Of a stretch of 64,000 nt of DNA, positions 4,101 to 42,144 are shown piece after piece (within the stretch, counting starts at the first letter, position 1; each line of letters starts with the position of its first letter). The position numbers and the translations under genes are program-made. The stretch spans positions 8,489,890 through 8,553,889 of the forward strand of contig JAJEKV010000030.1 in assembly GCA_021234155.1 (NCBI GenBank). The letters are read 5' to 3'. The DNA comes from Isoetes taiwanensis. Lineage: Eukaryota > Streptophyta > Lycopodiopsida > Isoetales > Isoetaceae. The notes under the pieces are model-generated. The model had not been told where the DNA came from, searched no databases, and worked only from the letters and a program-made list of their open reading frames with translations.

Positions 4101-4209
4101 CATGGTTTGGCCATATATTGCATGCCAAAGAATCTGGACAGGAGCTTGCCCTAGTCAGGCTTGCCACTACAAAAAGCACAATAATCACTACCATCTGACT
4201 CCTCATCAT
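1104..4209 (-). CDS. Secreted PQQ-repeat quinoprotein (polyvinylalcohol dehydrogenase-like), three exons, one frameshift
   Basis: Exons on the minus strand: 4209-3687, 2233-1630 and 1562-1104 (stop TAA at 1104-1106). The junctions have good sites: donor GGG|GTAAGC and acceptor CTAG|GG for intron 1; donor ACA|GTAAGA and acceptor ATAG|GT for intron 2. Joined, they give about 529 codons, the usual size of the plant family annotated as polyvinylalcohol dehydrogenase-like. Residues 1-23 look like a signal peptide (hydrophobic VVIIVLFVVASL). Beta-propeller PQQ-type repeats follow, with family phrases such as WNGFLYAL, GAAVWGSCPSID, DFGEAPMLL, SGVVWALDRNTGDVLW, GPVTIANGVIFAGS and a C-terminal GDSLFAYC. 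Near 3815 the frame breaks by one missing base (ATN-GTT); the family sequence AIYGLAILVAFDQ continues in the next frame up to the donor. This is either a pseudogenising deletion or a base error. Substrate is unknown for plant members; secretion is inferred from the signal peptide. A/AG-rich low-complexity DNA lies just inside intron 1 (3640-3678). Confidence 0.85.
2471..3565. mobile_element. Fold-back (long-TIR) element in intron 1 of the PQQ gene
   Basis: The outer arms, about 2471-2563 and 3475-3565, are inverted copies of each other. Both read AAGGGAAAAACTACAAAATG at the tip, followed by a segment rich in AAATGCCCTT and TTTTTATCATTTCACC. About 900 bp of unrelated DNA, including a CACTA-type MITE, sits between them. 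No transposase frame is visible. I could not define a clean target-site duplication, so superfamily is unassigned. It enlarges intron 1 to about 1.45 kb. Confidence 0.65.
2640..2835. mobile_element. CACTA-like MITE
   Basis: A 196-bp near-perfect palindrome that begins CACTACTACAAAAATAGG and ends CCTATTTTTGTAGTAGTG, flanked on both sides by TTT (2637-2639 and 2836-2838). The terminal CACTA motif and 3-bp duplication are the hallmarks of CACTA (En/Spm) elements. Each arm (about 85 bp) itself holds a smaller inverted repeat (AAATGGCACAAAAGTGAC and its complement), so the RNA would fold into a nested hairpin. It is non-autonomous and is nested inside the fold-back element in intron 1. Confidence 0.85.
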
Positions 4210-10773: not shown

Positions 10774-11156
10774 GTATGCATATATGCTCTTCTATTCTTC
10801 TAATTATTATATTGTGTACTTTTATAGTTATTGTTGTTCAAGAAAAAGTTGTCTAGCTGTTGTTGTTAGATTGTAGCCATGGGTGCCATAGTAGTTGGTG
10901 TGCTTGCTTGTGCTTAAATAGATTACTTATGCTTGTGCTTGCTTGTTATTTAGTAGGATGGTTCTTTTGAGGAAAACTTGCACATAGACTAGAGGCTGAT
11001 AATTTACTGGTCAATGGGTATGAATGAAAAATTATAGCTGGTTTGTGTACATTGCATTTGAAGTTGCTAGATATCTCAATATAGCTTGCTAGGATTTGTT
11101 GGTTCCTAGAAGGATGTATACTTTATAGCTTTTAAGCAAGTGGTTGAAATGTGCAT
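10774..11156. other. AT-rich intron-like or intergenic spacer
   Basis: No coding or repeat signal apart from the spacer between the exon-like fragment and the 3' tail of LINE A copy 1. Confidence 0.4.
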
Positions 11157-13919
11157 AGGAAGGAAGGAAGGAAGGTTCTTTTATCGTCCGCGGAGGCCAA
11201 TCGGCCTATGGGACCCAAATTACACGAGTGCAGCAAGCCCGTTGCTACCCGGATTAAAAAACCCCCTCTTACGAGCGAAAAAACGTCCAACAAGCCTGCT
11301 GGCAGCTGTACAAATATACATATACACATGAATTCCTGGCACCTCAGATAGGCGTCCGAGGGCAGAGGTGAGTCCGCAGATCCAAAACCTCCTGGAGGTA
11401 GGAGCCAAGGGATCGAACTGATGGCGTACTGAGTAGCTCGTGCAGGGCAGACCAGGTCGCACCAAGAGAATGTAGCGAGCCCAAATCTGACTATAGGCTG
11501 GACAGCTCTGGAAGGCATGGCTTTCATCCTCAACAACCCCCAGCGGGCAACACTGACAAAGCCTGTCCTGGCGCGGCTCTCCAACCCACCGACCTGTCTC
11601 AAGCCAAAGATGGTGGGTCCCTGTTCGAATGGACGCGATGATCCTGCGCTTCTTCATGGGCAACTGAGAACGCAGGTAGAGCTGTGGGCCTCGAACCAGG
11701 GTGGGGTTTATGTGCTATTTGTAGTGTGCCATCTTTACCTGTTCCAGAGCATGGTGGTCCCAGAGCTTCCCCAGGAAACAAGAGTCCAAGTAGCCCCTCA
11801 GCCTATCCCGGTCGGCGCCTGTGTGCACCTGGATGCACCTATGTGCATCTACGTTCCAGCGCGCCAGCCACTGGGCTCTCTTGTCCCTCCAACAAGCCCT
11901 GAGTCATTGCGGGCTCATCGCCACAGCATAAGCCAAGTGCGGGAGCCGAGTGTCACCCATGCTAGCCACCTTCTGGAAATAAACAATGTGTCTATCGAGG
12001 GCCGCATGCTGCAGGGGCATGAATCCTATCTCCTGCAACAAGATTTGATATGGAACTGAGGGCTTGACCCCAAGTGCCCGCGTAAAAAATGCCTTCTGGA
12101 CCTGCTCTAAGTCGTTCCAAGTCGCCAAAGACACCACTGGACCCCACACCTCGACCCCATACAGAAGAACTGGCTCCACCAGTGCCCGGAACAAATGTGA
12201 CTGGTGGCCCCAGTCATCTGAGCCTGGGTGTGACTTGTTTTGCATTAGCGCATGGTGCCTTCCAACCGCGGTCACCCAAGGCTTAATGGATGCATCCCAA
12301 TACATTGAGGACAGAAATTCCATCCCCAGGTACTTGTAGCTGGGTGTGACCTCTACCATCTGCCCCTGATAAGTGAGCGCCGGAGGTGCTGGATGACGTG
12401 AGGAGGATATGAGGACCAGCTTAGTCTTGGCCAGGTTGACATGCATGTCCATCGCCTGGCAGAATGTGTCCAGGGCATCTAGGTGTGCCTGCATGCCCTC
12501 TGGTGTATGGGCCAAGAGGTCCACATCATCTGCATAGATGAGCTGACCTGATGCAAGAGCTGTATACCGTCCCTCCCATTGGCAGCAAGCCAGGCTTCCA
12601 ACTGGTCAATGTAAAGTCCAAAGATTGTAGGTGAGAGAGGACAACCTTGCCTAACTCCAATGCTGCTGGCAAATGACTGTCCTTCCAGTTGCATGCGGCT
12701 GTGGCCCCTCTACAGATGCATAATAACCTGCTCGCGCAGATCCATAGGGAGCCCCGGATGGTGCAATCTTGCCCACAACTTTTCCCCGGTAATCGCGGTT
12801 TAAAGCTTTTGCAAAGTCCACAAAACAAAGAAGATAGTCCTCCCGGCGGTTCTGTTGTCCCCACTGTGGCCCCCGAGTGTGAAGATGTGATCAATGGTCG
12901 AATCGTCGGGTCGGAAGCCCGCCTGGGTAAGCAACCCGACTTCCGGCGCCTCGCCCATCCGTTACCTCATTGTTGAGAATGCTCGCGCACGGCTTGGCAA
13001 ACACCGAAAATGACCATGATGGTTCGGTAATTGGTGGACCGATTATTGGGTCCCCCGCCTTGTAGATCGGAACAACCCCGCTTGTGGTCCATGAATGGGG
13101 AAAACCCTCTTCTTGCGGCCTCGTTGAACGGGCGGCAGGGACGGGCACCATGGGCCGCCCCGCCCACTTGAGCAACTCCGCGCGCAGCCGCCTAAGTCTG
13201 CCGCCTTCCCATTAGCCAGTATTTGTAGCCCCTCTTCGACATCTTCTTACGTGATCACCGGTGATTGGGCCATGTTCGGGGGCACATCCGTCAGGTGTTC
13301 CCGCTCCCATTGCACCGTAGTGATGTTCCCCGTAGGTCGTGGCTGGCTCGGCAGAGTACCCCTGCCGTAAAAGCTCTCGTGGGCGCCTAGTAGGCCAAAC
13401 ATTTCTCCTTGGTGCCTTGCGGGTACCTTGCCTTTGTTTCCTTGAGGAAGGCGGGTGAATGGTCGGTGGCCTGAGCTCGCGTGTCCGATCCGCGATGAGG
13501 CGGAGGCGCGTTTTGCGTTCCTTACACTTTCGGCATCAAACCATCGTTGCAGCGAAAGGTTGTGGCCTCTCGATCTCGGGCGTGGGGGAGGTCTCCCAAA
13601 GCACTGTCGCCTCGTTCGGAGGAGCTCAACCAGCTGGTCGGTTTGCTGCTCCAGCGTGTGGGTCCGTAGAACTGTCGGGAGGGCTTCTGCGAGCATGTCA
13701 GCGTAACCCTCCGCCTGCTCATAATCCAAGTGCAACCGAGGTCGGCAAGGTGCTGCTACTGAGGGGCCGTAGCGGCTGGCCAGGCCAGCTTCACATAGAG
13801 TGGGAGGTGATCTGAGTCGGCCTCCTCGTCCCGACTGTCCGTGCCGATGTGAAAATGGCTGATAAGGTGTACATCCTGCGCAGCCATCATGGCATAATCC
13901 ACGACACTAGTTCCGTCGA
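11157..13919 (-). mobile_element. LINE A copy 1: 5'-truncated non-LTR retrotransposon
   Basis: Read on the minus strand, it begins at 13919 inside an APE-type endonuclease: SVVDYAMMAAQD (about 13910-13875), then SDHLPLYVKL with the catalytic SDH motif. The reverse transcriptase follows in several frames, with SIGVRQGCPLSPTIFGLYID (12660-12600), a YADD-type box across a frameshift (about 12540-12520, reading IYADDVDLLAH) and VNLAKTKLVLISS. A C-terminal cysteine knuckle (RLCQCC...EDESHAFQSCP, 11590-11505) comes next. The 3' end is the array (CCTT)n, AAGG on plus at 11157-11175. At least four frameshifts make it dead. A second copy with the same 3' end lies at 60.8-64 kb. Confidence 0.85.
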
Positions 13920-14144
13920 GGGATGCCACGTGGCACCACTAAGATGGGGCCGTGTGGCGGTTGCCCAATAGGAGAAGGCCATAAGGAAATGGGCCTTTCC
14001 TAAGGTTATCTAAGTTAAACAATTAACTTAGATGTGCACCCCTTGCCACTTTCTAAGGCATACAAGGCTACAAAGGTAGACTTGTATGGTGATGGGTCCA
14101 GGAATTATACGTATTTATAGCGTATATTCCCCTGGAACGTCACA
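13920..14144 (-). repeat. Truncated 3' LTR
   Basis: Matches 28032-28256 of the 5' LTR nearly base for base, including the TATA palindrome. The homology stops abruptly at 13920, where LINE A sequence begins. The remaining 1.4 kb of LTR is absent from the other side of the LINE, so it was lost by deletion or recombination rather than simply displaced by an insertion. Confidence 0.9.
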
Positions 14145-14157
14145 TTCTCCCCCCCTT
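14145..14157 (-). promoter_or_regulatory. Polypurine tract (plus-strand DNA primer site)
   Basis: The minus strand reads AAGGGGGGGAGAA immediately before the TGTGACG start of the 3' LTR, exactly where a retroelement polypurine tract must lie. Confidence 0.85.
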
Positions 14158-14545: not shown

Positions 14546-17500
14546 CTAACCTCCTGGCAAGTCGGGGTCGACCAAGTCGGAGACGACTCGCCCATCAAAC
14601 TCCTTCATAAACTCTGGGTATTGCTTCTCCAAATCCTGCTTCAATACCCATGTTGCGTCTTCCACGGGCAAGTGCTTCCATTTGACCAAATACTGGAGGA
14701 ACTGAGACCTCCTAGTCTTCTTGAATGACTTATCGAGAAGTAACTCAGGCACAATTTCAACTTGCTCTTCTGTCATTTCCAACAAAGTTGGAGTATCCAA
14801 GACCTCATCAGGGTTAGGATTGTGCCTTTTCAATAAATTTACGTGGAAGACTTTATGAACTTTGAGATGGGCCGGAAGATCCAACTTGTAGGCTTGGGAG
14901 CCTACTCTCTCCCAAATCTTGAACGGACCAGCCCACCTAGGGGCAAGCTTCTTGCAATTCCCTATGCGAAGCTTAGCTTGCTTCACCTTGATCTTCAACC
15001 AAATGCTGTCGCCTACCTTGAACTCTCTTACGGTCCTGTGCCTGTCGACTACACTCTTCTGCCGACTTCTTGCTGCTAATAGGTACTCCCTTACTTCTTC
15101 CACCAGCTGCTGCATATCTCCTAGCATCTGTTGGGATACTTCAACCTTTGACACTGAATTGTGCCAAGTATCCGGGGTTAGGCACTGGTACCCGTAATTG
15201 ATCATGAATGGAGACATCTGGGATGACTCCTGCTTCGTACTGTTGTAGGCGAATTCTACCAAGTGAATGTACTCATCCCACTTGGATTGCTTATTCCACA
15301 CATAACTTCTTAGCATATCTTCGATGATGCGATTCGTCCGCTCCGTCTGGCCATCCGTCTGAGGATGGTATGCCGTGCTCATCGAGAGCTTGGTCTGAAT
15401 CGTAGCAAAAAGATCTTGCCAGAATGCGCTCATAAACTTCGAATCTCTGTCTGATATTATCTCTCGAGGCATGCCATGGAGTCTAAAAATCTCCTTCACA
15501 AAATGCTGGGCAGTGTCTAAGGCTGTGTCCGTAGTTTTGCAAGGCATAAAGTGTGCCATCTTAGATAATTTGTCTACGACAACCATTAATGCATCTTTGC
15601 CTCGTAGAGTTCTAGGAAGTCCTGTGATAAAATCCATGCTTACCACTTCCCATTTTGCATTCGGCACTGCTAAAGGTTCCAAGGCTCCCGGGATTCGAAG
15701 CTGCTCCGCTTTGGTCTGCTGGCACAACTGGCACTCTCGAATATATCTGGCTATCTGTTTCTTCATTCCTGGCCAGAAATAGCTACTCTGAATCTTGAAG
15801 TAGGTCTTCATAAACCCCGCATGCCCTGCTATTGGGCTGTTGTGTGTGTCATGAAGAATTAACTTCCTTATACTTGACGATTCGGGCACACACAACTTGT
15901 CCTTATGGTACAACATATTGCCTTCCTTCCTGTAATGCTTGAAGGCTTCCCGTTCCTTATCTGTTCTAGCCTCCTTAGAGAGGCTTTTCCATACCTCCTT
16001 GAAATCACCATCAGATGGTAATGTCTCCTCAATTTTCTTGCCATACCCACTCAAAAGAGTTGATATAGCATTACATTGTGTTCTCGTCTTAAGGGGTCTT
16101 CTAGAGAGAGCATCAGCAACCACTTTCAACTTATCCGGCTTATAGGCAATTTCAAAATCATACTCTTCGAGGAATTCCATCCACCTCCTTTGCCTTAGAT
16201 TAAGGAGTGGTTGGGTAAAAATGTATTGGAGGCTTTGGTGATCAGTATCTAACTGAAATTTCCTCCCAAGCAAATAGTGCCTCCAAATACGAAGAGCTCT
16301 CACACTAGCTAGAAGTTCCTGATCATGGGTTGGATAACGCTGCTTGGTGTCATTCAACTTCTTGGAATCATAGGCTACTACTCTTCCTTCTTGCATAAGG
16401 ACTCCACCTGTTGCTATCTTACTTGCATCTGTTGCTACTATCTTGTCTTTATCTGGATCTGGCAGAACTAGCACTGGAGCTGTTGTTAAGGCTTCCTTAA
16501 GCTTTTCAAATGAAGCTTGAACATTTTCTAGCCAATGTGTTCTCCAATCTTTCACCTTAACACTCTTAGTGAGATCCGTCAAGGGGGATGCCCACTTAGC
16601 GAAGTCCTTTACGAACTTCCTGTAGTATCCCGCCAGACCTAGAAAACTCCTCACCACTGCCACATTCTTTGGAGCTGGTCAATCAACTACTGCTTCAATC
16701 TTAGATGGATCTGTAGAAATCCCCTCAGCTGATACCACATGCCCCAAGTATTCCACTCGACCTGTTGCGAAGTGGCATTTGGAGAGCTTTCTATATAGTC
16801 GATGCCGTCTCAACTTTTCCAATACTCTTCCCAAGTGCTGACAATGATCTTCAAGGGACTTGCTGTAGACTAGAATGTCGTCGAAGAAAACAATGACAAA
16901 CTCATCTAGGAACTCCCTGAAGATGTCATTCATGAGACGCATGAAAGTTGCTGGGGCATTCGATAGTCCAAAAGGCATTACTGTAAACTCGAAGTGCCCA
17001 TACCGCGTTCTAAAGGCGGTCTTATGGATATCTTCTTCCTTTATCCTTATTTGATGGTAGCATGACCTTAAGTCGATCTTAGAGAATACTTTTGCTCCTT
17101 GGAGCTGGTCAATCAAATCATCTGCCCTTGGCAAAGCATACTTATTCTTTATCGTCTGTTTGTTAAGCTGGCGATAATCTATGCACATTCTTAGGCTCTC
17201 ATCTTTCTTCTTCACGAAGAGTATGGGTGCTCCAAAAGGAGACACACTTGCTCTAATAAATCTAAGTTCGAGCAATTCCTGCAGCTGCTTCTTGAGCTTT
17301 ATCAACTCCGGGGTGCTCATCCTGTATGGTGCCTTGCTGGTAGGCTTAGCATCTGGAGCTAATGTGATCTCACATTCTACACCCCTATAAGGTGGTAGCT
17401 GCCGGATTTCATCCGGGAATACATCCTTGAATTCTGTAATGAGCCTTGCTACTGGCTTGGGCAACTGATTCCCCTTCTGGTTACTTCCATCCTGTTTATT

Positions 17501-19606: not shown

Positions 19607-21111
19607 TCATCGATGCCCCCTCATGGACTTGAAGAAGTTCTTGACGTTCTTGAGTCGTAGCCCTTTGCCGACGTTCTGCAAGATCCTTGCGGCCGATCCT
19701 CCTTCAAGTGCTCTTGCCATCTGGGGTGCAGGGAGTTCGGGTGCCGTCGCCGCCACTACTGACAATGTTGCGTCCCTGAGGTGGCCCCTGGCGAAGTCGA
19801 GGCAATGAAGAGCTACCGATCTCTTAAAGAGGATAACATGATCTGTTATGTAATCTATTTTGGCGTGCTGCCCGAAGCCTGAAAGTGCTACAAGGAGCGC
19901 CACCGACTCTTCCCCTCTTGGGCTGAACTCCTTATGGAAGACTATCATCTGCCCTTGACTAAGGGCCGGAAGATAGTACTTAAGTGCCTTGCCCTTCTCT
20001 GTGCCCCCGGTTCCCGTACCTTTTCTCTGAGCTGCTTCGCCGAAGACATCTAATGCAAAAAGGTCTTCGTGATCCCTCCACATTGTTATCGCGTTCTCCA
20101 AGTTGATGCTGTTGGATGCTTCGCGCATGCTCCTGGAACGCACTGGTCGGCTGGAGCTTGGGCCTCTTCCTGGCTTGTACAATCTACTTTGTATCTGCTG
20201 GAACTCTTCCTCTGGGATGATGGGTTCCTGTTGTTGATAGATTTCCCTTATCTGCTGATAAGCTGCTATATCTGACATTGTCTCCCTGGCATAGGAGTGC
20301 CGGTCTACTAGCTCCCTTGGAATTTCCTGATAGGAGTAGTCGATGAAGTCGTTGCCCTGCTCTTTTGCAATTAAGCCTAACCTTCTTCTTGGCAGTAAGG
20401 AAGGTTGAGGATGTCGTTAGCCAATATGTACTCCTCGCCGTCGATGATGACTGGAGACAGGGCCGTGATGTCGATTGGCGGTTCGAAATCTCGCCTTAAG
20501 GTGCCTTCTTGCCTAGCTATACGCCTCTCCATCCTCCTTGCTTCTCTCATCTCCCAACTTGGGTTCTCCTCCCCTTTCTACTCGTAGTCTTGCTCAATCT
20601 GCAGCATCGGTGTTCCTGAGGTCGCGCCATAATACTCGTACTCTGAAGACTCGATCTCATGGATGTTGATCTGCTCCCTTCGGGTGTCGAGAGGTACTAA
20701 ATCTAGAGGCTGAATTGAGGGCTCTCCTGCCTTGTTGATTGATTTATACTGCATAAATAGGGCTAGGGCTGCATGGGCTGAGAGATATCTATGCCTATTA
20801 TGTCTGCAGGTCATGTAATCGGGCATGGTTCTGGTCCTATCCCACAGCTTCTTCTTGCCCCTGGATCCTCCCCCTACAGCTTGGGTAAGCGAATCTAGGG
20901 ATACCCATTTCCCTCCCCTAGGTGGCAAGCTAACTTCCCAGGGTAGAATCTGCTGGTCATACTGGCAAATGATATCAGTGTAGAAGGGAGTTCTGGTCAA
21001 TGTTGCATGAAGATCAAAGAGGTGGTCAAAGACATGGAAGGCTTGCTCAGCAGGAAAATCACGGATATGATTGGCAGCATCATACCATCTGATGAAGCTA
21101 GAGGGCGCCAT
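19607..21111 (-). CDS. ORF2: unrecognised protein of about 500 residues, one stop and one frameshift
   Basis: ATG at 21111 in good context (CTTCATGGCG). The frame runs to a TAG at 20578-20580, continues open as KGEENPSWEMREARRMER and on to LANDILNLP. It then shifts frame near 20395 into RRRLGLIAKEQGNDFIDY and ends at 19607 after a basic tail (LKNVKNFFKSMRGHR). I read it as one broken frame of about 500 codons, because sequence character and spacing are continuous. There is no signal peptide or clear membrane segment. The N-terminal third is rich in aromatic and His residues (FIRWYDAANHIRDFP, HVFDHLFDLHATL); the middle is acidic and Gln-rich. I recognise no family and assign no function. It sits between the H3-like ORF and gag and has its own upstream TATA box. 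An ATG 11 codons earlier (21144) is the alternative start. Confidence 0.6.
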
Positions 21112-21220
21112 GAAGCAGAGATGGATGTAAAAAATGGCTTGCAAGGATCAATGGGAGACTGAAAAATCGCCTAGGATGCTAAGAGCAATTCTGATGAGGG
21201 GAAAATGACAAATGGGGTCC

Positions 21221-21229
21221 CCTTTTATA
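21221..21229 (-). promoter_or_regulatory. Internal TATA box for ORF2
   Basis: The minus strand reads TATAAAAGG, a near-ideal plant TATA box, 110 bp upstream of the ORF2 ATG. The same box is kept in the duplicated leader at 24206-24214. It suggests that ORF2 has its own transcript rather than relying only on the LTR. Confidence 0.55.
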
Positions 21230-21407
21230 GACTAAGGTCTGCCTTGGGTTCCGTGCACAAGGGGTTCTTGGTAGGAAAAACTTTTGTTCGAGGGCTATGG
21301 GTGTCCAAATGAGCTATCATGAAGTGCAAATCTAAGCAAAGCAAAGCAAGAAACACTACATGGCAGGTTGTTGGGTCAAAATTGGTCAAATTAGGCCAAA
21401 AATGGGC

Positions 21408-21480
21408 AAATCGGGTCGGTTCGCGCGAATAGCCTCTGCGTTGCGAACGCGGGCCGTTTTCGCGGGGTCTGACCCGATTA
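21408..21480. repeat. GC-rich hairpin repeat, copy 1
   Basis: A 73-bp unit bounded by AAATCGGGTC and GACCCGATT (inverted complements). It holds the palindrome TTCGCGCGAA and the near-palindrome GCGTTGCGAACGC. It lies in the non-coding gap between the H3-like ORF and ORF2; a duplicate-leader counterpart is at 24392-24463. Confidence 0.75.
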
Positions 21481-21608
21481 GGGTTATTTTGGGTTCAGAT
21501 GAGGGTTTCTAGGAATTTTAAGATGCTAACATGACTATTTGGCTCAATTCTGATCTAGCTAGCAACTTATTTCATGCAATTTGGACATGTCATGGTGCCA
21601 ATTTGGCC

Positions 21609-21680
21609 AAATCGGGTCGGTTCGCGCGAATAGCCTCTGCGTTGCGAACGCAGGCCGTTTTCGCGCGATCAGACCCGATT
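21609..21680. repeat. GC-rich hairpin repeat, copy 2
   Basis: A second copy of the 72-73-bp hairpin unit, 201 bp from the first and differing at a few bases, with the same terminal inverted arms. The matching copy in the duplicated leader is at 24593-24664. The surrounding DNA is AT-rich, so the GC peaks stand out sharply. Confidence 0.75.
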
Positions 21681-21907
21681 TCGCCAATTTTGGCTTAGGG
21701 TTCCATTTTTTTTGCTAGGATGTCTATTGCTTAAACTATTACGGGCATTTTGATCATGATACACAAAAACTATACTATAATTCGAGCTACTTAGCCACAT
21801 TTTCATGTGAAAATTGAATCAATTTACAAAAACAAAAGAGCTATATATTTATAGAAAACGATTTAATTACATTAAAACTTTTAATAAACGTACAAAATTA
21901 GGAGAAC

Positions 21908-23053
21908 TCAAGGGTACTCCTTGCGGATTCTCCGCGCCAAATGGATATCTTTGGGCATGACAGTTACCCTTTTGGCGTGGATGGCACAGAGATTGCCTTC
22001 TTCAAAAAGCTGCGTCAGCTCTGCTTCGGAAGCTACTTGCAAGACTCGTGTGGTTAAGGAAGTTACCCTGTAACCAGTCACGAATTCTTGCATCACCTCC
22101 CGCATCAGGCGCTCGAAAGGCGCCTTCCTAATCAGGAGATTAGTACACTGTTGGAAGTGCCTAATCTCCCGGAAGACCCGCGCGTGCCGAGAGTTAGACC
22201 CATGATGGACCTTCTTTGGCTTCTCCGGCCGTGGAGGTGGCGGCTTCGGCTGGTTCTTCGGCCAGCCGCCTTGGACAAACCTCTCCACATTCTGCTTGCA
22301 GTACCAGTCATTGTACCTCGTTCAGCGACAAAGGTACTCCTGGTACGCCTTCAGGCGGCGCTTAAATTCGCGTTCCTCACGGAGCGCGAATGGCCGCTCG
22401 CCCACCTTCTGCTTCTTCACTACCTTCGGTGGCTTGGGCCACTTTGGGTAGGGTGGGCGTGCTTTGGGGTCTGAAGATTCCCCAACGACTTCGTGCTCCT
22501 CCTCCTCCTGGACTTCTTCCTCCTCATCACCTCCTCCTTCCTCCTCTTCCTCCTCACGCGGGCGAGGTTCTTCAATTACGACAGTCCCGCGAGGCCTGTC
22601 ATTTCTCCTCTTCGTTCTCCGCTCCTTCTCCCTAAGCTCCCTCTCCCTCTTCCTTCTCGCAGCTGCTTCTTCCGGCCACTCCGCCACCTTCTTCTTGCCC
22701 TTCTTCTTTGCTGACGAAGGGCCCGCCTCCTGGATTTGAGTCTGGGTCTGGTGCTGCTCTTGGTCCTCCTCCTGCTCTTCCTCTTGATGCTCCACCTCTG
22801 TGTCAGACGGGGGTCCAAAATGGCGAGACTCGTCGGTTCGCTGAGTGCCTGCCGACGAAGACCCGCTGCTGCTACTGGGGACCTCCTCCTGGGAGATGTG
22901 GAAGGTATCATCGGATGACGACGGCGCCTCCTCCTCTTGTCTCGGCCGAAGGTGTGGCGGAATCTGCTTACCGTGACGACCTGCTGCTAGGTGTGCCATC
23001 GAAGATGTGGGTCTCTCACCAAACTTCCTTGCTGTCTGCTTGGTGCGTGCCAT
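21908..23053 (-). CDS. Retrotransposon-encoded histone H3-like protein (H3 tail, acidic linker, H3 fold)
   Basis: A 381-codon frame from ATG 23053 (TTAAATGGC context) to the stop at 21908, interrupted by one TGA at codon 244 (22322-22324). Residues 1-10 are [10 protein letters not shown], identical to the start of histone H3 including K4 and K9. Residues about 11-280 are a low-complexity, disordered-looking region: Ser/Gln/Glu-rich, then Lys/Arg-rich (KKKGKKK), then a long Glu run and Pro/Lys. Residues about 282-381 are an H3 core: [65 protein letters not shown]. By hand alignment about 55 of 91 core residues match canonical H3, with no gaps in helices or loop 1. The H3 K56 position is Gln. 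No CENH3-type longer loop is seen, and the C-terminal MPKDI..ARRIR is canonical. The TGA looks like a CGA-to-TGA transition and is shared by both leader copies. Likely nuclear; its role in the element is unknown. Confidence 0.88.
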
Positions 23054-23624
23054 ATTTAACGGTCTAGGAAATGGATGACGTAAGGCTGAGCAAGAGAGAT
23101 AAGGTGGAGGAAAAGGTTGGGGGGAAATGAGGTGGCAAAGATATTTAAAAGGAGGTGTTCTAGGGAATATTCTCCTACCATTAATAGGCCTACTTATTAG
23201 CCCCCTTATTAATTACTCCAATATAACTTAATTATTAATATATATTTAATTCTTAGTATGTATTTTTAATTTCGTATTATACTTTCAAAATTTTAGATTT
23301 TTCCTAATAGTTTGGAGTCTTAATTATGAATTTGCACCATTTTTCACTCAGATCTCGGATTGGCATGATTCTTCGACCCATTTTAGGTGAAATTTCATGC
23401 AGATGCATAATTTTCACTTCAAATTTACTAGAAGGTGAATTTGACTCGTTCTTTTTCGTCATCTAACACTTAGCCTGCTCTTACGGACCCACTACCTAGG
23501 GAAAAAATTTTCCCCCTATTTTCGAGGTTCCATGGTGGAAATTTTTCATTTCGCACCCTATCAGGCCTGTTAGACTACTTTCAAGGATATGGTCAGTGCT
23601 AGTTCTTGGTCAACCAAGAACATC

Positions 23625-23636
23625 GCTTTGATACCA
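23625..23636 (-). promoter_or_regulatory. Primer-binding site, inner copy
   Basis: The minus strand reads TGGTATCAAAGC one base after the CGTCACA end of the partial LTR. It is identical to the outer PBS and was carried along by the tandem duplication. Confidence 0.8.
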
Positions 23637-23637
23637 T

Positions 23638-23865
23638 TGTGACGCTCCCTGCTAAATATACGGCACACAGCCGTACACTCGGCAGGAAATCCCCCATCCG
23701 GTCCTTCAACCGCACGGGCCCTCCGTCTATTCCGCACTCTGAGATGATCGTAATGCGGGAAGGGGACACGAAGGTGTCTTGCGTGCCCTTCCCCTATGGG
23801 CTCCTATCACAGTGGAAGCACAAACATCGTCAGAACTAGCAATAACAATACAACATACTACCTCG
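23638..23865 (-). repeat. Partial LTR (inner)
   Basis: Matches 26615-26842, the 3' end of the 5' LTR, including the terminal CGTCACA. It lacks the LTR start and TATA palindrome, so it should not act as a normal promoter. Confidence 0.85.
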
Positions 23866-23870
23866 AAGAG

Positions 23871-24096
23871 TAAGCGAATCTAGGGATACCCATTTCCCTC
23901 CCCTAGGTGGCAAGCTAACTTCCCAGGGTAGAATCTGCTGGTCATACTGGCAAATGATATCAGTGTAGAAGGGAGTTCTGGTCAATGTTGCATGAAGATC
24001 AAAGAGGTGGTCAAAGACATGGAAGGCTTGCTCAGCAGGAAAATCACGGATATGATTGGCAGCATCATACCATCTGATGAAGCTAGAGGGCGCCAT
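23871..24096 (-). pseudogene. Truncated ORF2 copy
   Basis: Begins with the same MAPSSFIRWYDAANH start as the full ORF2. After about 75 codons (WVSLDSLT) it runs across the duplication junction into LTR DNA and stops. The TATA box and leader upstream are intact. Confidence 0.8.
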
Positions 24097-24892
24097 GAAG
24101 CAGAGATGGATGTAAAAAATGGCTTGCAAGGATCAATGGGAGACTGAAAAATCGCCTAGGATGCTAAGAGCAATTCTGATGAGGGGAAAATGACAAATGG
24201 GGTCCCCTTTTATAGACTAAGGTCTGCCTTGGGTTCCGTGCACAGGGGTTCTTGGTAGGAAAAACTTTTGTTCGAGGGCTATGGGTGTCCAAATGAGCTA
24301 TCATGAAGTGCAAATCTAAGGAAAGCAAAGCAAGAAACACTACATGGCAGGTTGTTGGGTCAAAATTGGTCAAATTAGGCCAAAAATGGGCAAATCGGGT
24401 CGGTTCGCGCGAATAGCCTCTGCGTTGCGAACGCGGGCCGTTTTCGCGGGGTCTGACCCGATTAGGGTTATTTTGGGTTCAGATGAGGGTTTCTAGGAAT
24501 TTTAAGATGCTAACATGACTATTTGGCTCAATTCTGATCTAGCTAGCAATTTATTTCATGCAATTTGGACATGTCATGGTGCCAATTTGGCCAAATCGGG
24601 TCGGTTCGTGCGAATAGCCTCTGCGTTGCGAACGCAGGCCGTTTTCGCGCGGTCAGACCCGATTTCGCCAATTTTGGCTTAGGGTTCCATTTTTTTTTGC
24701 TAGGATGTCTATTGCTTAAACTATTATGGGCATTTTGATCATGATACACAAAAACTATACTATAATTCGAGCTACTTAGCCACATTTTCATGTGAAAATT
24801 GAATCAATTTACAAAAACAAAAGAGCTATATATTTATAGAAAACGATTTAATTACATTAAAACTTTTAATAAACGTACAAAATTAGGAGAAC

Positions 24893-26032
24893 TCAAGTGT
24901 ACTCCTTGCGGATTCTCCGCGCCAAATGGATATCTTTGGGCATGACAGTTACCCTTTTGGCGTGGATGGCATAGAGATTGCCTTCTTCAAAAAGCTGCGT
25001 CAGCTCTGCTTCGGCAGCTACTTGCAAAACTCGTGTGGTTAAGGAAGTTACCCTGTAACCAGTCACGAATTCTTGCATCACCTCCCGCATCAGGCGCTCG
25101 AAAGGCGCCTTCCTAATCAGGAGATTAGTACACTGTTGGAAGTGCCTAATCTCCCGGAAGACCCGCGCGTGCCGAGAGTTAGGCCCATGATGGACCTTCT
25201 TTGGCTTCTCCGGCCGTGGAGGTGGCGGCTTCGGCTGGTTCTTCGGCCAGCAGCCTTGGACAAACCTCTCCACATTCTGCTTGCAGTACCAGTCATTGTA
25301 CCTCGTTCAGCGACAAAGGTACTCTGATGCATGCCGGTGGCGCTTAAACCAGCGTTCCTCACGGGAATGGAATGGCCTTCGCCCACCTATACGCTTCTTC
25401 ACTACCTTCGGTGGCTTGGGCCACTTTGGGTAGGGTGGGCGTGCTTTGGGGTCTAAAGATTCCCCAACGACTTCGTGCTCCTCCTCCTCCTGGACTTCTT
25501 CCTCCTCATCACCTCCTCCTTCCTCCTCTTCCTCCTCACGCGGGCGAGGTTCTTCAATTACGACAATCCCGCGAGGCCTGTCATTTCTCCTCTTCGTTCT
25601 CCGCTCCTTCTCCCTAAGCTCCCTCTCCCTCTTCCTTCTCGCAGCTGCTTCTTCCGGCCACTCCGCCACCTTCTTCTTGCCCTTCTTCTTTGCTGACGAA
25701 GGGCCCGCCTCCTGGGTTTGAGTCTGGGTCTGGTGCTGCTCTTGGTCCTCCTCCTGCTCTTCCTCTTGATGCTCCACCTCTGTGTCAGATGGGGGTCCAA
25801 AATGGCGAGACTCGTCGGGTTATTTGAGTGCCCGCCGACGAAGACCCGCGCTGCTATGGGGACCTCCTCCGGGAGATGTGGAAGGTATCATCGGATGACG
25901 ACGGCGCCTCCTCCTCTTGTCTCGGCGAAGGTGTGGCGGAATCGCTACCGTGGCGACGACTGGCGCTAGGTGTGCCATCGAAGATGTGGGTCTCTCACCA
26001 AACTTCCTTGCTGTCTGCTTGGTGCGTGCCAT
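24893..26032 (-). pseudogene. Second, damaged copy of the histone H3-like ORF
   Basis: Starts with [18 protein letters not shown] like the inner copy, then loses frame through several small indels at about 25830-25960. It regains the frame through the acidic linker (25777-25307), shows a diverged patch at 25320-25400, carries the same TGA, and ends with an intact H3 core to 24893 ([16 protein letters not shown] is [16 protein letters not shown] here). The H3 tail start and the histone fold are better preserved than parts of the linker. Confidence 0.85.
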
Positions 26033-26601
26033 ATTTAACGGTCTAGGAAATGGATGACGTAAGGCTGAGCAAGAGAGATAAGGTGGAGGAAAAGGTTGGG
26101 GGGAAATGAGGTGGCAAAGATATTTAAAAGGAGGTGTTCTAGGGAATATTCTCCTACCATTAATAGGCCTACTTATTAGCCCCCCTTATTAATTACTCCA
26201 ATATAACTTAATTATTAATATATATTTAATTCTTAGTATGTATTTTTAATTTCGTATTATACTTTCAAAATTTTAGATTTTTCCTAATAGTTTGGAGTCT
26301 TAATTATGAATTTGCACCATTTTTCACTCAGTCGGATTGGCATGATTCTTCGACCCATTTTAGGTGAAATTTGATGCAGATGCATAATTTTCACTTCAAA
26401 TTTACTAGAAGGTGAATTTGACTCGTTCTTTTTCGTCATCTAACACTTAGCCTGCTCTTACGGACCCACTACCTAGGGAAAAAATTTTCCCCCTATTTTC
26501 GAGGTTCCATGGTGGAAATTTTTCATTTCGCACCCTATCAGGCCTGTTAGACTACTTTCAAGGATATGGTCAGTGCTAGTTCTTGGTCAACCAAGAACAT
26601 C

Positions 26602-26613
26602 GCTTTGATACCA
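26602..26613 (-). promoter_or_regulatory. Primer-binding site (initiator tRNA-Met type)
   Basis: The minus strand reads TGGTATCAAAGC, one base inside the 5' LTR. Plant Ty3/gypsy elements commonly have TGGTATCAGAGC complementary to initiator tRNA-Met; there is one mismatch here. Confidence 0.8.
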
Positions 26614-26614
26614 T

Positions 26615-28256
26615 TGTGACGCTCCCTGCTAAATATACGGCACACAGCCGTACACTCGGCAGGAAATCCCCCATCCGGTCCTTCAACCGCACGGGCCCTC
26701 CGTGTATTCCGCACTCTGAGATGATCGTAGTGCAGGAAGGGGACACGAAGGTGTCTTGCGTGCCCTTCCCCTATGGGCTCCTATCACAGTGGAAGCACAA
26801 ACATCGTCAGAACTAGCAATAACAATACAATATACTACCTCGGTAGCTCATCCACATATCCATAGCTGCAAAGAACATAATCATATGCCACAAAACATGA
26901 GAGCTCCTACCCATGGCTCTGACTCATAAGGAGGTAGACTGACTGGATAGGTCTCAAGATAGAGCAGACCGAGTCATAACAATGGCGGGGCTGGCTATAG
27001 ACAATGGCTAGGGTTGACCACTCCATCCGCCCCTCCTGTGCATACTTTGCAGATGGGCTAGATCAGGCTGTGGCATGACTCTAAACTTCCGGATACACAA
27101 TCCCATGGTATCATCCATCGGGACTACTCCAGGTTGCATCTGCCTGGTCTGTCGAGGCAGGAAGGGTTGCATCTCCCCTTCCCGGGGTCTAGAGGTTCCA
27201 CGGGCGGCTAGAGAATCGGGGCGACACACGATTCATATCCGACTGAACCCCCCAAAACAAGAGCCAAGCTGACACTTGCAACTCTTGAGAGGCAGGGCGA
27301 CACCATCGCCCCAGGAGGTGTCGGACCCATGCTTGGCCCACACGAAGTGACCGACCATAAGCCTAGCCCACTATGGGATCCCCCGTAGCCCCCATTCGGC
27401 AGGGATCCTCCCTCCGCCTTGCCTCTAGCCCCGTTGTGTAGTGTTGAGTCACATCATAGCCTCCATAGCCCGGTGGGTTCCTATGCACAGGCCGCAATAA
27501 TAATAGGAACTAAGGGATCTACATTAGGAGAATACTACATATGGCCCTGGGTCTCTACCCCCCTTCCCAATACAAGAGGAGCAACATGATCAACCAATAT
27601 CACATATGTCATATCATGATAAATATCATAAGAATATCTTAACCTAATCATACATATCTAACTTACAGTTAGGGTTCCTTGATTAGGGTTCAAGATGTTC
27701 ATCAAAGGTTCTAGGATGGCTCTACTCTAGATACAACACACAGACCCATCTGGAGTACTAAGTTCCAGACGAACCACTATGAACTCTACTCCACCTACCT
27801 GCCCCAGATGCACTTCCTCCCATCCCTGGTGTCTCCATTGCTCCTTGAGGTTGTCGAAGTCGTGCTCCCTCCACGATCATGCGCACACTTCGGGGGCTGC
27901 TGCACCAGGCTATGCTACAACGAACGATGCTCAAAACGGGGTTTCGAGTGCGTAGAGGAGTGTTCAGGTGCTAGAGCCAGAAAAAGGGGTCTAGGGTTAG
28001 GGTTTGAGCCAATATAGGTGAGGGTCCACGTGGGATGCCACGTGGCACCACTAAGATGGGGCCGTGTGGCGGTTGCCCAATAGGATAAGGCCATAGGGAA
28101 ATGGGCCTTATCCTAAGGTTATCTAAGTTAAACAATTAACTTAGATGTGCACCCCTTGCCACTTTCTAAGGCATACAAGGCTACATAGGTAGACTTGTAT
28201 GGTGACGGGTCCAGGAATATACGTATTTATAGCGTATATTCCCCTGGAACGTCACA
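26615..28256 (-). repeat. 5' LTR, 1642 bp
   Basis: Begins TGTGACGTTCC at 28256 and ends GCGTCACA at 26615 (minus strand), defined by the match to the 3' LTR start, the polypurine tract and the PBS. It contains a TATA palindrome within the first 45 bases and no convincing ORF. The right-hand flank begins GGTAATTCG; the matching target duplication cannot be checked because the 3' LTR is truncated. Confidence 0.85.
28211..28247 (-). promoter_or_regulatory. TATA box inside an LTR palindrome
   Basis: The minus strand reads CCAGGGGAATATACGC, TATAAATA, CGTATATTCCTGG. A TATA box is framed by inverted arms (GAATATACG and CGTATATTC). The same structure is at 14098-14135 in the 3' LTR with one extra base. 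Confidence 0.6.
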
Positions 28257-36031: not shown

Positions 36032-39000
36032 ATGGACAAGAAGACCGTGAGCTGGAACGTTCGTGGGGTGCGCTCGTCATTTGCGAAGAGAACGAGAGTG
36101 GCATTGGCCGTCCGCAAGTTGGATCCAGATATCTTGTGCCTTCAGGAACATAAGTGTCACAGGGGGGACGCTCGGGCACTGTTGGACATGTTTGGGCCGC
36201 AATACGCTGCTGCGGTTGCCACCTCTGGGGCCTCTAAGGGTGGGACTGCCATTGCGTGGAAGATGCACATGCAGGTGACTTTTACCATGGCTGACCGTTG
36301 GGGCAGGTGGGTCATCATCAGGTGGCGTGAGGGTCCGCACGAGTGGGGGATTGTGAATGTCTACGCCCATAATAGCGTGTGACAGAGAGGGGCATTGTGA
36401 GCGTCGTTAAGACATAAGGTCGCATCCTTGGGGGGCGGATGTGGCTTGACTGCTGTTGGGCGACTTCAACATGGTCGAGTCCATTCATGATAGGTGTGGC
36501 AGAGAAGCGGAAGTCGTGCAGGGTTTTGAGCGGCAGTAGTGGGTGATGTTGCTGGACTCCTTGCATCTGGCAGAGGCGGCAGGCGACTCTTCATTTACGT
36601 GGTGTAATCAGTAGACGGGGGCCGGTCGGGCGTATGCTCGACACGACAGATGCTATGCTAATACCCTAGCAGCGGACCAAGTGCCTCAGCTCAGGCGGAC
36701 GAACATTTTGTCTACCGCGGTCTCTGACCATTTTTCTCAGTTAATCTCCCAGGGAGCGACGGCAGCCAGGCCGAGCTGCACTATGTTCAAGTTAAATACC
36801 GCCTACCTGAAGGATGCTGATTTCTCTTGGGGATGCCAGCAGATTTGGTTTCGTGCCTTTGGGGATAATTTCGGGATGGCGGGAATGGTGCAGGCCTTAG
36901 CTGAGGTCAAGGCATTCGCCAAGTCGTGGGGAAGTCAGAGAGCACGGCAAGAGGGGGAGGTGTTAGAGGCGTTGTATCGCGAATTAAAAGCCCTTAGGTC
37001 TCAGTCGTCTGATGGGGTGCGAGAGAATGAGATTTTGTGCTACATTGCAGCAGATGAATCCAGGAGGGCTGCTCAGGCAAGGGTGAAAGAAGGGATCACC
37101 TGGCTGCGAGAAGGGAACACTAATTCTCGAATGTTCTTCAGGGCTGCGCGACAGAAGAAGTATGCGGCCTCGGCATTAGCTGATGGTCGTATTCTGAATT
37201 CGCCGGTGGACATCAAACAGGCTACTTTTCAGCACTTCTCTCAGTTCTTTCAGGAAAAGAGATACCCCTACATAGACGTGATGGAGGAGATTGTGCTCAT
37301 TAAAGTGATGCAAGGTGTCGGCAGATAGGAGGCAGGTGTTGCAGCGCCCGCTCACAAAGCAGGAGCTTGAGGAGGCTTGCCGTGCCTTGGCCCTCCATAA
37401 GTGCCCTGGTCTGGACGGCATTCCGGTCGAGTTCTTTCAAGAATATTGGGATTGGGTGGGGGACTCGGTGTTGCAGACCTATCAAGATCTGCTTCAGCAG
37501 AAGCGTTGGACTATAGGCTGAACACGGGCTGCATCTCGTTGATACCGAAGGTGAAGGAGCCAGCTGTCATTTTTGATTGGCGCCCCATCACGCTTCTGTC
37601 GGCAGTATATAAAATTATTGTGAAGGCACTTTCGCTTAGACTGCAAGTTGTCTTGAAAGAGACTATTAGTCCCATGCAGTCTGGTTTCATTCCGGGCAGG
37701 CAGATTCTTAGCAATGTAGCAGCGGCATTCGAGGGCATTCACTGGGCATGCAGAACAGGTCAGCAGATTGTGTACTTGAAGCTGGACTTCACAAAGGCCT
37801 ATGATAGTGTTCGGTGGACGTTCTTGAAAAGGATGATGTTAGCCTTTGGATGTGGGGAGAGCTTTACGGCAGTGGCTATGAAGCTCTTAATGTCCGCCAG
37901 AGCCAACCCTCTGTGTCACGGCGAGTCATCTCCGATCTTTAGTGTGGGGCGTGGAGTTTGCCAGGGATGCCCTTTGGCGCCCTTCCTCTTTACCATTGTA
38001 GCGGAGGCCCTCTCGCAGTTGTTGACTTCCGCAGTGGAGGCGGGTGTTGTGGAGGGGTCGAGGATGGTAGACGGGTCGCAGCTGATTGGGAGTCAGTACA
38101 TTGATGATTCATTCCTCTTCCTGCAGGCTGATGAGAGGAATCTGTTAAACACGAAGGAGCTGCCGGATACATTCTACATTGCTTCTGGCTGCCTCATGAA
38201 TTGGACGAAGTGCTCGGCATTGTGGCCGGCAGCTGACCCCATGCCTGTGGTCGTGTCCCAATTCCCTGGCGAACGCAGCCGCAGGGCACGTGCTCTAGGC
38301 TTTTGGGTATCCCGTTCGACATCGACATCTCAGCCGTCAGCTGTGTGGGAGGACATTCTGGTGGGACTGCGTCGGCACCTTAATTGGTGGAAGGGGGGAA
38401 AGCTATCCATGGCTGGCAGGGTCACAGTGGCAAAGTCCGTCCTATGTTCGACTCATATTTGTATGGCCTCTATCATCCTGGTGCTAGAAAGCAAGGTGCG
38501 GAAAATCTCCTCTATGGTTCGTAACTTTGTATGGGGAGGCAATGAGGAAGGGGCAGTCGATAAGGTGGCCAGGTGGAAGTGCGTGTGCCCCAAGGCTGTG
38601 GGTGGACTCGGATTCTTCGACCTCGCTGCATGGCAAGGTCCTCTTATCTAAGTTTGTCTTTGCCATTCTTGAGAATGCGCTCGACTCCCCGGGCATGGTC
38701 TTGCTTCATCAGTCGCTGTCTCACTCCATAGTTTTCCACAAGCCGTTCGTGCCTGCGCGGCTCTCCTGGGCGTTGTTCGTGGATATCAGGCCGTATGCTC
38801 ATGCCTCTCTATTTCTGAAGGGGCTCCTGCGAGCCTGGGAGCAGGTACGTCCGCTGTTTGCAATTGACGCCACCAGGTGCATTTAGTTGGAGGCATCGCC
38901 TTGGTGGATCCCGCTCGGACCACGCACACCTTTGGTTCTGGCAGCCTCCGTCGATCCTCGAGTTCAGCGCAGATGGGCGCAGTGTGGGGTATTGACGGTG

Positions 39001-39437: not shown

Positions 39438-42144
39438 AGCACAATATATATTTTTTTATAAAAAACTAGAAATGGAGCTCAGCGTTGCTGGACATAGCTA
39501 GGAACTGTAAATGATACACTCTGGAGCAAATTGTTAAGTTTTTACGTCTTTAAATCACACAATTAAGAGGATTTGGCCACATTTTCACTTTTGTTTCCTT
39601 ATTTTCTTTTCCTTTTCCTTTTCCATGCTTTTATATTTTATTTTTTTATTTTCCCCTTTTCCACCATTTACCTTTTTTCTTTTTCCACTATTCTATTTCT
39701 ACCATCTTCCTTTTCCCTTTTTTCGTTTTCCCCTTCAATGTTTTTATTTTTCTAATTTCACATCCTCTTTTTTTCTCATTTTTGTATGCCCTTTCCTTTT
39801 TTCTCTTTCACATTTCTCTACCCCTTTTTCCTTTTTTTCTTCCTTCTCTATTTTTATATTCTCTGCTTTTCCCTTTTTCCTTTTTCTATTTTTCTCTTCC
39901 TTTTTGTTCCCCTCCCATTCCTATTTTACCATTATTTTTCTCTCATTCCCTTTATTCTCCTCCTTATTTCCCTTTTTCTTTTCTTCCCACCTCTCTCCTC
40001 CCCTCCCCTTCGCTCCACTTCCCTTTCCCTTTATCTTTCTGTTTCCCCTTCCCCTTTCATTTTCCGATGGCCATTTTCCCCTTCCCCTCTCGTCCTTTCC
40101 CAACCCTTTCTCTCTTCCACTTTTTCTCGTACCATTTTTCCCTTCTATTTCCCCCTCTTCCTCTCCCTTTTTCTTCTCCTTTTCCTTTTCTCTTTCCTTT
40201 TTCCCATATCCCTTTTCCCCACCTTTTTTTCCTTCTCCTTTTTTCCAGTGTGCCTTTTTTCCTTCCCTTTCCCCCTCCTTTGTTTTTTTCCCTTTCCTTT
40301 TTTCCGTAACTTCCCTTTTTTCCTTTCCTTGCACTTTCCCTCTTACTTTTTTCTTCCGTTCTCTTTTCCCCCCATTCCGTCCTCTAGTTTTTCTATGCCC
40401 TTTTTTCTTCCCTTCCTTGCTTCCCCTTCCCTTTTTCTTTTCCCTTTCTTTTTCCCTTTTTCTCTTCCTCTTTTTTCATGTCCTTCTTCCCTTCATTTTT
40501 TCTCCTTTCCCCACCTTTTTCCTCTTCCCCTTTCCCAATGTCCCTTTTCGCTCCCTCGTCCTCTACCTTTCTTTTCCCTTTCCCTTTTCTCCACCCTTTT
40601 TTCTTCTCCTTTTTTCCAATGCCCTTTTTTCCTTTCCTTTTATTTTTGTGCCTTTTTTCCTTCTCTTTCCCCCTTCTTTGTTCTTTTCTCTTTCCTTTTT
40701 TCCGTATCTTCCCTTTTCCCCTTTCGTCGCACTTTCCCTCTTCCTTTTTTTTCCCCTTCTCTTTTCCCCCATTCCCTCTTCTAGTTTTCTCTATGCCCTT
40801 TTTCCTTCCCTTACTCGATTCCCCCTCCTTTTTTCTTTTCCCTTTCGCTTTCTCTTCTCCCCTCCCTTTTTCTCTTCCCATTTTTTCGCGTCCTTTTTCC
40901 CTTTCTTTTTTCTCCTTTCCCCTCACCTTTTTCCTCTTCCCCTTTTCCAGTATCCCTTTTTGCTCCCTCGTCGTCCCCCTTTCTTTTCCCTTTCCCTTTT
41001 CCTTTCCTTCTCCCTTTTCCTTTTCCCTTCTCTTCTCTCAACCCTTTTCCTCATCCCCTTTCTCCCTTCCCTTTTACTCCTGTCCTCAATCTTTCCATTT
41101 TCTCCTTTTCATAGTGTCCTTTTTTCCTTTTTTTTGTCTCCCTTTCTTTTCCTTTCCCTTTTTTTGTGCTCTTTTCCCTTTCCTTTTTCCTTTTTCTTCT
41201 TTCCCTTTTACCCGTGCTTTTTTACCTTTCACTTTGCCCTTTTCTCCTCCCTTTTCCTTTTTCCTTTTCTCTTCAGAGGTTAGAGCATGGCCAATCATGG
41301 TGGTGGGAATCGTGCAATAATCTCGGCCTTCGGATGCAATCAGATGATCTCAACCGTCCAAATTAGGGTTTGCTTCATGACATACGCTAAAACTTTATAA
41401 TATAAGATGCTTTGGCTATTTTTTAAAATCTTACAGTATTTTATGATATATATCTGGCTAAAGTTATTATTATCATGACGTTTATATGTATATGGATTTG
41501 GAGAAGCTTTTGAATTAAGTATTCCTTTAAGCTTTCACTTGACTATTTTTTTTAATTAGGAAAAGCAAAAAATGTAAATTCTATAGTTTTAGACATATTG
41601 TAATCAATAATCAAGAAACATGCGATGATATTAGAAAACTTTTAACAGAAGCTCACATCATAGCTTGAAACATCTATAGTCTAAACTACATTCAATGCAA
41701 CGGGGTCCTTCTAGATTTATCTCTAACCCTTGAAGAAAGTTATGCAACCAACTCGGGCATCTAGATGGATATTAGCCATCTCTTACAACTCCTTTTTTAA
41801 GATGCATATGTGATACATGTAATAAAAATTTATAATTTGAAAAAGTACTATCACCAATGATGGTAGGTGGCGATCCGTAAAAATCTTTAATAAGAATTCA
41901 TTTTGTTTGACTATTAATGATCTAATATATAAATATTGTAATATAAAGAAAGGCTAATCCCTTTTTCTTTAAGGACAAGGGGGAAAATAGTTTGGCTGAT
42001 TTAAAAAAAAAAATGTACTTGTTTTAACTATGGCTATTTTTTATTTTTTGAAAAAAAATCTCTCTTCATAAAATTCGCCGCAAAAATTACCTAAACCCCC
42101 TGAAAAATCGCCATTTGGCTAATAATAGCCACTAATTTTTTCTA
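39438..42144 (-). mobile_element. Helitron-like insertion carrying a pyrimidine tract
   Basis: This segment interrupts LINE B. Near its left end the minus strand reads a hairpin (CCAGCAACGCTG), ten bases, then CTAG followed by T (CTAG at 39466-39469). This is the 3' end pattern of Helitrons and closely matches the end at 60481-60509. The 5' TC end was not located. The outer limits also show short inverted tips (GAAAAAATTA on both sides), so another element type is possible. About 41280-42140 is AT-rich without a gene; no Rep/helicase is present. Confidence 0.45.
39590..41275. repeat. 1.7-kb pyrimidine tract with about 400-bp tandem units
   Basis: Almost every base on the plus strand is C or T. 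Rare purine landmarks recur in register: TTTTTTCCGTAACTTCCC (40303) and TTTTTTCCGTATCTTCCC (40697); CTAGTTTTTCTATGCCC and CTAGTTTTCTCTATGCCC about 400 bases apart; CGCTCCCTCGTC and TGCTCCCTCGTC about 409 bases apart. The long open frames in all three forward frames (Phe/Leu/Ser/Pro only) result from composition and are not genes. Confidence 0.85.

Follow-up and report, generated by a model that had tools for sequence, protein, structure and literature searches.

The question raised by this locus is whether an LTR retrotransposon has captured a histone H3 gene and uses it, as a sequence-only reading had proposed, or carries it without use. The window, which is the whole stretch of 64,000 nucleotides that was analyzed, contains on its minus strand an element arranged in the order 5' LTR, primer-binding site (PBS), duplicated H3 unit, H3, ORF2 (in two pieces), gag-protease (PR)-reverse transcriptase (RT), RNase H (RH)-integrase (IN)-chromodomain, polypurine tract (PPT) and 3' LTR remnant. 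Its features are as follows; L032 is another copy of the element in the same genome.

28256 to 13917, minus strand: chromovirus element with tandem-duplicated H3 unit
26615..28256, minus strand: 5' LTR, about 1.64 kb, TGTGACG...GTCACA; length and ends match those of L032
26600..26613, minus strand: primer-binding site TGGTATCAAAGCGA, read from the sequence; second copy at 23623-23636
23870..26842, minus strand: tandem unit 2, 97.9% identical to 20885-23865
24893..26032, minus strand: H3-like frame copy 2, broken, within the tandem duplicate
20885..23865, minus strand: tandem unit 1, with LTR end, PBS, leader, H3 and start of ORF2
23140..23152, minus strand: TATA-like stretch in a conserved non-coding block directly before the H3 ATG
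21908..23053, minus strand: H3-like frame copy 1, with H3 start, acidic and basic tail, linker and H3 fold (about 21911-22177)
22322..22324, minus strand: in-frame TGA breaking copy 1, also present in copy 2, where the ORF 25777-25307 ends
20578..21144, minus strand: ORF2 first piece, 188 aa, no known family
19607..20278, minus strand: ORF2 second piece, 223 aa
16679..18919, minus strand: gag, protease and reverse transcriptase (Retrotrans_gag 3e-17, RVP_2 6e-9, RVT_1 2e-38)
14546..16663, minus strand: RNase H, integrase and chromodomain (RT_RNaseH 4e-32, Chromo 5e-11)
14145..14157, minus strand: polypurine tract, by sequence; L032 has the same tract beside its 3' LTR
13917..14144, minus strand: 3' LTR remnant, 96.9% identical to 28029-28256

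The gag-PR-RT-RH-IN order with a chromodomain at the IN end, as detected with Pfam, is that of a Ty3/gypsy chromovirus, and the H3-bearing family is a high-copy family of this class. The tandem duplication is 2.98 kb long, and therefore the H3 unit is present twice in the window. The H3 frame had been placed between the PBS and gag. It is located downstream of the PBS, but a second extra frame, ORF2, lies between it and gag. ORF2 (19607-21144 in the window; 5740-7260 in L032) is whole in L032, where it encodes 507 aa between H3 and gag. It gives no significant match in Pfam, the PDB or the protein database, with none at E 0.001 among 8,000 candidates scored, and its AlphaFold model has a pLDDT of 35.4. 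Two copies of a 93-bp repeat, 88% identical to each other, are located between H3 and ORF2 in both tandem units (21403-21696 and 24387-24680). Outside the element, LINE-like reverse transcriptase ORFs, named by eye, are found at 11132-13735, where they adjoin the cut 3' LTR below 13917, and at 36681-38651. Two minus-strand ORFs at 1573-4209 resemble, by eye, parts of a PQQ-type dehydrogenase and are perhaps exons of a host gene, ORFs at 51138-51892 resemble, by eye, a hAT-type transposase, and long overlapping ORFs on both strands at 39625-41320, which are of low complexity and rich in F, P, S and L, are probably simple-repeat DNA.

The H3-like frame of copy 1 appears as two minus-strand ORFs, 23053..22322 (243 aa, with the H3-like start) and 22288..21908 (126 aa, with the H3 fold), which form one frame, their starts being 765 bases apart. 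The first ten residues of this frame are H3-like, as had been claimed, and the claim of a gap-free H3 fold at its C-terminal end also holds. The Pfam Histone family is matched with E=2.2e-30, and the best solved H3 chain is matched with E of about 1e-29 in a gap-free alignment over residues 38-124. At 56 of the 89 fold positions the commonest residue among 20 copies is that of canonical H3, again with no gaps. The fold is thus matched across its length, and the frame belongs to the histone H3 family. The sequence-only reading was right about the frame and its place, but the frame is interrupted by one TGA, so that the window holds no intact H3 gene. This stop is probably older than the duplication, because it is common to both duplicates. 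The H3 frame may have its own promoter, a possibility suggested by the TATA-like stretch before its ATG. A stop is present within 40 codons before this ATG in 9 of 18 copies, and translation from further upstream is therefore unlikely in those copies. The AlphaFold model of the H3 protein is poor (pLDDT 49.6). When the full H3 frame was used as a database query, the best 120 rows covered 22-51% of the frame, histone domain included; the element tail is absent from the three of these rows that were read, which are tandem or fused H3s. A scan of viral contigs gave no relative.

A one-off capture is rejected by the number of further copies. The genome (1.66 Gb in 1,110 contigs) contains at least 150 scored places that match the 126-aa fold stretch, with identities of 85-99% in the rows listed (the best 150 of 9,619 first-look candidates), and H3 is also found upstream in copies that were picked by ORF2. 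Twenty long copies were selected for long open H3 frames, and 9.9 kb was fetched around each. H3 is covered to at least 90% in all 20 of them, ORF2 to at least 59% in 18 and not at all in two, gag-PR-RT to at least 18% in 18, and pol to at least 32% in 16. A MARTK or MAQTK start is recognizable in 18 copies, 15 of which have a frame of 362-385 aa open from start to stop, and a PBS-like match is located within the first 400 bases in 15 of the 20. L032 combines an open H3 frame of 378 aa with the open ORF2. Its LTRs are whole (1.64 kb, 97.3% identical), and it has a PBS, a PPT and the sequence GCCTG on both flanks, a 5-bp target duplication. Thus, L032 is a bounded insertion carrying an open H3 frame. 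It is the one copy, among four whose ends were read, with the complete set of LTR pair, PBS, PPT and target duplication; the LTR match is in two pieces in L024 and covers part of the LTR in L040, and no LTR pair is seen within the stretches read for L029.

The arrangement of H3 and ORF2 is conserved. Among the best 150 ORF2 matches, 44 are preceded on their own strand, at 0.5-6 kb, by one of the listed H3 folds, the distance being 2.10-2.21 kb in 37 of these 44 linked pairs; in one H3-ORF2 pair the order or strand is wrong. The proportion of 44 in 150 is a lower bound, because the H3 and ORF2 lists each comprise the best 150 matches. Six plus-strand copies with no listed H3 were also drawn at random from the ORF2 matches, and the first three were read. 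The fold is present at the predicted place in all three, and the frame is broken in all three, indicating that decay of individual copies is common.

Broken copies exist, and LTR elements are known to capture genes, according to the available text of a review (PMC7264820); both points speak for passenger DNA carried without use by the element. Substitution in the fold argues otherwise. The fold has a dN/dS of 0.029 at a dS of 0.97 in 33 copies of the window lineage (40 loci minus seven that repeat a place, all found by fold similarity). By the Nei-Gojobori method applied region by region to the 20 long copies, dN/dS is 0.033 for the fold, 0.105 for the first 15 codons, 0.189 for the tail and 0.123 for the linker, and 0.316, 0.351 and 0.358 for ORF2, gag-PR-RT and pol respectively. 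The possibility that picking copies by H3 similarity had created the signal of selection was checked with the ORF2-picked copies and is rejected, since the fold dN/dS is 0.025 and 0.032 in the two of the three that were measured. In a second lineage, termed lineage A, the fold dN/dS is 0.032 at a dS of 0.64 (11 copies); synonymous sites are saturated between lineages. Stop codons in the 20 long copies number 3 in 7,395 codons for H3, 37 in 8,548 for ORF2, 102 in 11,097 for gag-PR-RT and 115 in 12,291 for pol, but the very low count for H3 is biased because these copies were selected for open H3 frames. With an RT segment of the same length as the fold stretch, identity among the best 150 matches is 92-97%, apart from the window's own place at 100%. 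The fold is therefore no more conserved than RT by identity among the best 150 matches, and the contrast rests on dN/dS. A dN/dS of about 0.03 at a dS of 0.6-1.4, far from the value near 1 that the sequence-only reading had named as the mark of passenger DNA, holds for two lineages and also for copies that were picked through ORF2. The H3 frame is thus not passenger DNA, and carriage without use is extremely improbable. Given selection this strong, the element probably depends on a chromatin protein of its own.

The lineages differ in the kind of H3 that they encode. In the window lineage, R49, R63, K64, R69, R72 and R83 are each kept in 19 or 20 of 20 copies, as are most of residues 108-131. 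At positions 108-118, 120-123, 126-128 and 130-131, which we take to be those of H3-H3 pairing and loop 2, 33 copies show four departures (C110Y, A111S, A111T and I112F). Nevertheless, 33 of the 89 fold positions deviate from canonical H3, with fixed or near-fixed changes at R40-T45, from K56 to Q, from K79 to V and at 87-90. The DNA contacts of alpha-N, R40, Y41, R42 and T45, are lost. Residues 87-90, which presumably decide chaperone choice, are LTTR in 33 of 33 copies, whereas both host genes that were read have (S/H)AVL. If these residues have their usual roles, the H3-H3 and loop-2 faces are kept, whereas the DNA entry contacts and the residues for chaperone choice differ. The H3 of the window lineage may not make a normal nucleosome, because the alpha-N contacts are lost and 33 of the 89 fold positions are changed. 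About 290 residues precede the fold (289 in L032). Residues at the extreme N-terminus are kept, but S10 and the canonical rest of the tail are absent in the 18 copies with a start, and neither a canonical short tail with ARKS sites nor the R40-T45 contacts of alpha-N are found in this lineage.

The long divergent tail is a likeness to CENH3, and the motif IRHFQ..TNLLI is shared with Arabidopsis CENH3. However, the element H3 has HAKRVT where Arabidopsis CENH3 has HARRVT. Loop 1 of CENH3 is longer than that of H3, and loop 1 of the element H3 is of canonical length in an ungapped alignment. By its loop length, the element H3 does not fit CENH3.

The kept N-terminus raises the possibility that the protein is a histone mimic or decoy, whose tail and hold on H4 or chaperones would divert H3-tail writers, readers and chaperones from host silencing, and which would not be built into nucleosomes of the element. 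The low dN/dS of about 0.1 over the first 15 codons of the window lineage and the invariant LTTR, given the presumed role of residues 87-90 in chaperone choice, speak for such a use. Lineage A bears on this reading. A canonical H3 query gave, as the best 150 of 9,064 candidates, 15 full-length frames that are 96-98% identical and 135 places that are 71-86% identical. Two of the former and 14 of the latter were read, and 11 of these 14 places are lineage A. The lineage A ORF is 409-425 aa long in four whole frames measured, and consists of an N-terminal domain joined to an H3 fold that is 88% identical to host H3. Because the H3 of lineage A lacks a free N-terminus and its fold is almost canonical, tail mimicry cannot be the shared function: it is compatible with the window lineage but conflicts with lineage A. 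As an account of the element H3 as a whole, a mimic or decoy is rather unlikely.

The N-terminal domain that is fused to H3 in lineages A and C (L051-L054 and L066) is an unrelated one of about 300 aa, starting with MANTK or MPRFK. Outside the histone part, the three proteins of lineage A that were tested give no Pfam family above the cut-off, and the domain shows no similarity to the tail of the window lineage. Used as a query, the domain matched 141 scored places, from 3,736 candidates, and 97 of these are in open frames of at least 400 aa, with room for an H3 part, though some have a stop inside the matched stretch. Downstream of L054, the sole lineage A copy examined there, are a relative of ORF2 (22% identical over 121 aa, E 1e-6) and a further ORF2 piece (31% identical in 61 aa), together with gag pieces that are 64% identical in 74 aa and 48% identical in 50 aa, and pol pieces at 73% and 72%. 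Lineage C consists of two folds, and the one N-terminal region read is 33% identical over 323 aa to the lineage A domain; one further place, L056, stands alone. In the folds of lineages A and C that were read, alpha-N retains its canonical sequence, HR(Y/F)RPGTVALREI. Two unlike kinds of N-terminal part thus precede the same fold, indicating that the fold is the part kept.

The origin of this fold was analyzed with a tree of 49 rows and 89 columns, which include 41 distinct non-host folds (31 of the window lineage, seven of lineage A, two of lineage C, and L056) along with two H3s of the host, five further H3s and a single CENH3. The branch that separates the 41 non-host folds from the H3 genes and CENH3 has a support of 97/92, with a bootstrap that is not settled. 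Of the 46 inner branches, 33 are open, and lineage A does not form one group. The non-host folds lie apart from CENH3, which is a single sequence on a long branch. One capture is the simplest reading of this grouping, and one old capture of a host H3 gene is likely from the sequences. Both host genes read have E77, as compared with D77 in reference H3, and E77 is also found in 30 of 33 copies of the window lineage and in six of 11 copies of lineage A, the other five having Q; L90 is common to lineage A and the host. These two residues fit a capture from this host's own lineage and give a weak hint of it.

The proposal that an H3 gene was captured and is being used by the element is supported by the number of copies, the conserved position, the strong purifying selection in each of two lineages and the grouping in the tree. 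With regard to the use, a histone that enters chromatin is favored, because the fold is common to the lineages and the N-terminal parts differ. An H3 gene of a host would have entered a chromovirus clade, probably in a single event long ago, and would have been retained as the first gene after the PBS. Its product would be a working H3 variant that folds as H3 and pairs with host H4, and the resulting (H3-H4) units would be placed on DNA, most likely the element's own cDNA or new copies, or alternatively on chosen host sites. The element-specific N-terminal part would serve as a tail or tether, and element DNA would thereby acquire chromatin controlled by the element and not by the host alone. 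We consider entry into chromatin with host H4, with the N-terminal part as tail or tether, to have a slightly better than even chance of being correct.

The first place after the PBS, the basic H3 fold and the basic stretches of the tail would also suit a protein that acts as an additional nucleocapsid, compacting the RNA or cDNA of the element inside the particle or the pre-integration complex and having no specific chromatin function. However, gag of the window element already has its own CCHC knuckle, although this match is weak (E 0.016), and packaging alone would not require such strict conservation of the fold. Packaging is accordingly an improbable explanation, more so than a mimic or decoy.

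If the element H3 does enter chromatin, its integrase may be a reader of it. The integrase chromodomain has I and L at cage places 1 and 3, in an alignment to HP1, and the three aromatic cage residues of a type I chromodomain, the H3K9me reader, are not found in the window integrase. The chromodomain is therefore of type II. The partner of plant type II chromodomains is reported as not identified in the available text of two papers (PMC3350952, PMC6317226). The element H3 is a candidate for it: deposited on the element's own copies, it could be the missing partner of the element's own integrase and guide new copies to or away from self-marked chromatin. This idea is a long shot, but if it is true, a mobile element makes both a histone and its reader, a private nucleosome code.

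Eukaryotic silencing of retrotransposons works through histones. A retrotransposon clade that has kept its own H3 through long divergence, at a dN/dS of about 0.03, would be a natural experiment on who controls the chromatin of mobile DNA. It is also a testable system for the specificity of H3 variants, with one near-canonical lineage and one that is 37% diverged in the fold.

Among known systems, plant type II chromodomain chromoviruses share with the window element the gag-PR-RT-RH-IN-chromodomain order, the PBS and the lack of cage residues 1 and 3, but in the window element PBS and gag are separated by H3 and ORF2, two additional sense ORFs. In the best 120 rows of a search, identity goes up to 48% among those covering at least 88% of the query, which include entries of melon and PITA (read as pine), and identities of 55-59% are confined to 38-54% of the query. 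The H3 frame resembles the aORFs and eORF-5'Fs of plant LTR retrotransposons, which are likewise extra ORFs present in many copies of a family (PMC7264820, PMC6317226). It differs from them in that no histone-encoding one is named in the available text of the review, from which the word histone is absent (PMC7264820), or in the main text of the survey, where this word occurs once, on the chromodomain cage (PMC6317226); the eORF supplement of the survey could hold such an element. No histone-encoding LTR retrotransposon was found in the literature searched, the scope of which leaves out most subscription journals and bioRxiv preprints. The claim that no element with an H3 gene has been described is therefore sustained for LTR retrotransposons, as far as found, but fails for mobile elements at large, because fungal hAT DNA transposons with such a gene have been described (PMC3538342, PMC6710886). 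According to the available text of these papers, an H3-like gene is carried and multiplied by a mobile element in Pyrenophora tritici-repentis (PMC3538342) and in Pseudocercospora fijiensis and its relatives (PMC6710886). The Pyrenophora H3L, whose tail is altered, has been classed as neither H3 nor CenH3 and is present in 26 very similar, recent copies (PMC3538342), and the captured H3 copies of Pseudocercospora are inactivated by RIP (PMC6710886). The window element is not a hAT transposon with an H3L, since it has LTR, PBS, gag and pol instead of a hAT transposase and terminal inverted repeats. Thus, the fungal carriers are DNA transposons, whereas the carrier described here is an LTR retrotransposon, in which H3 is under long-term purifying selection in several diverged lineages.
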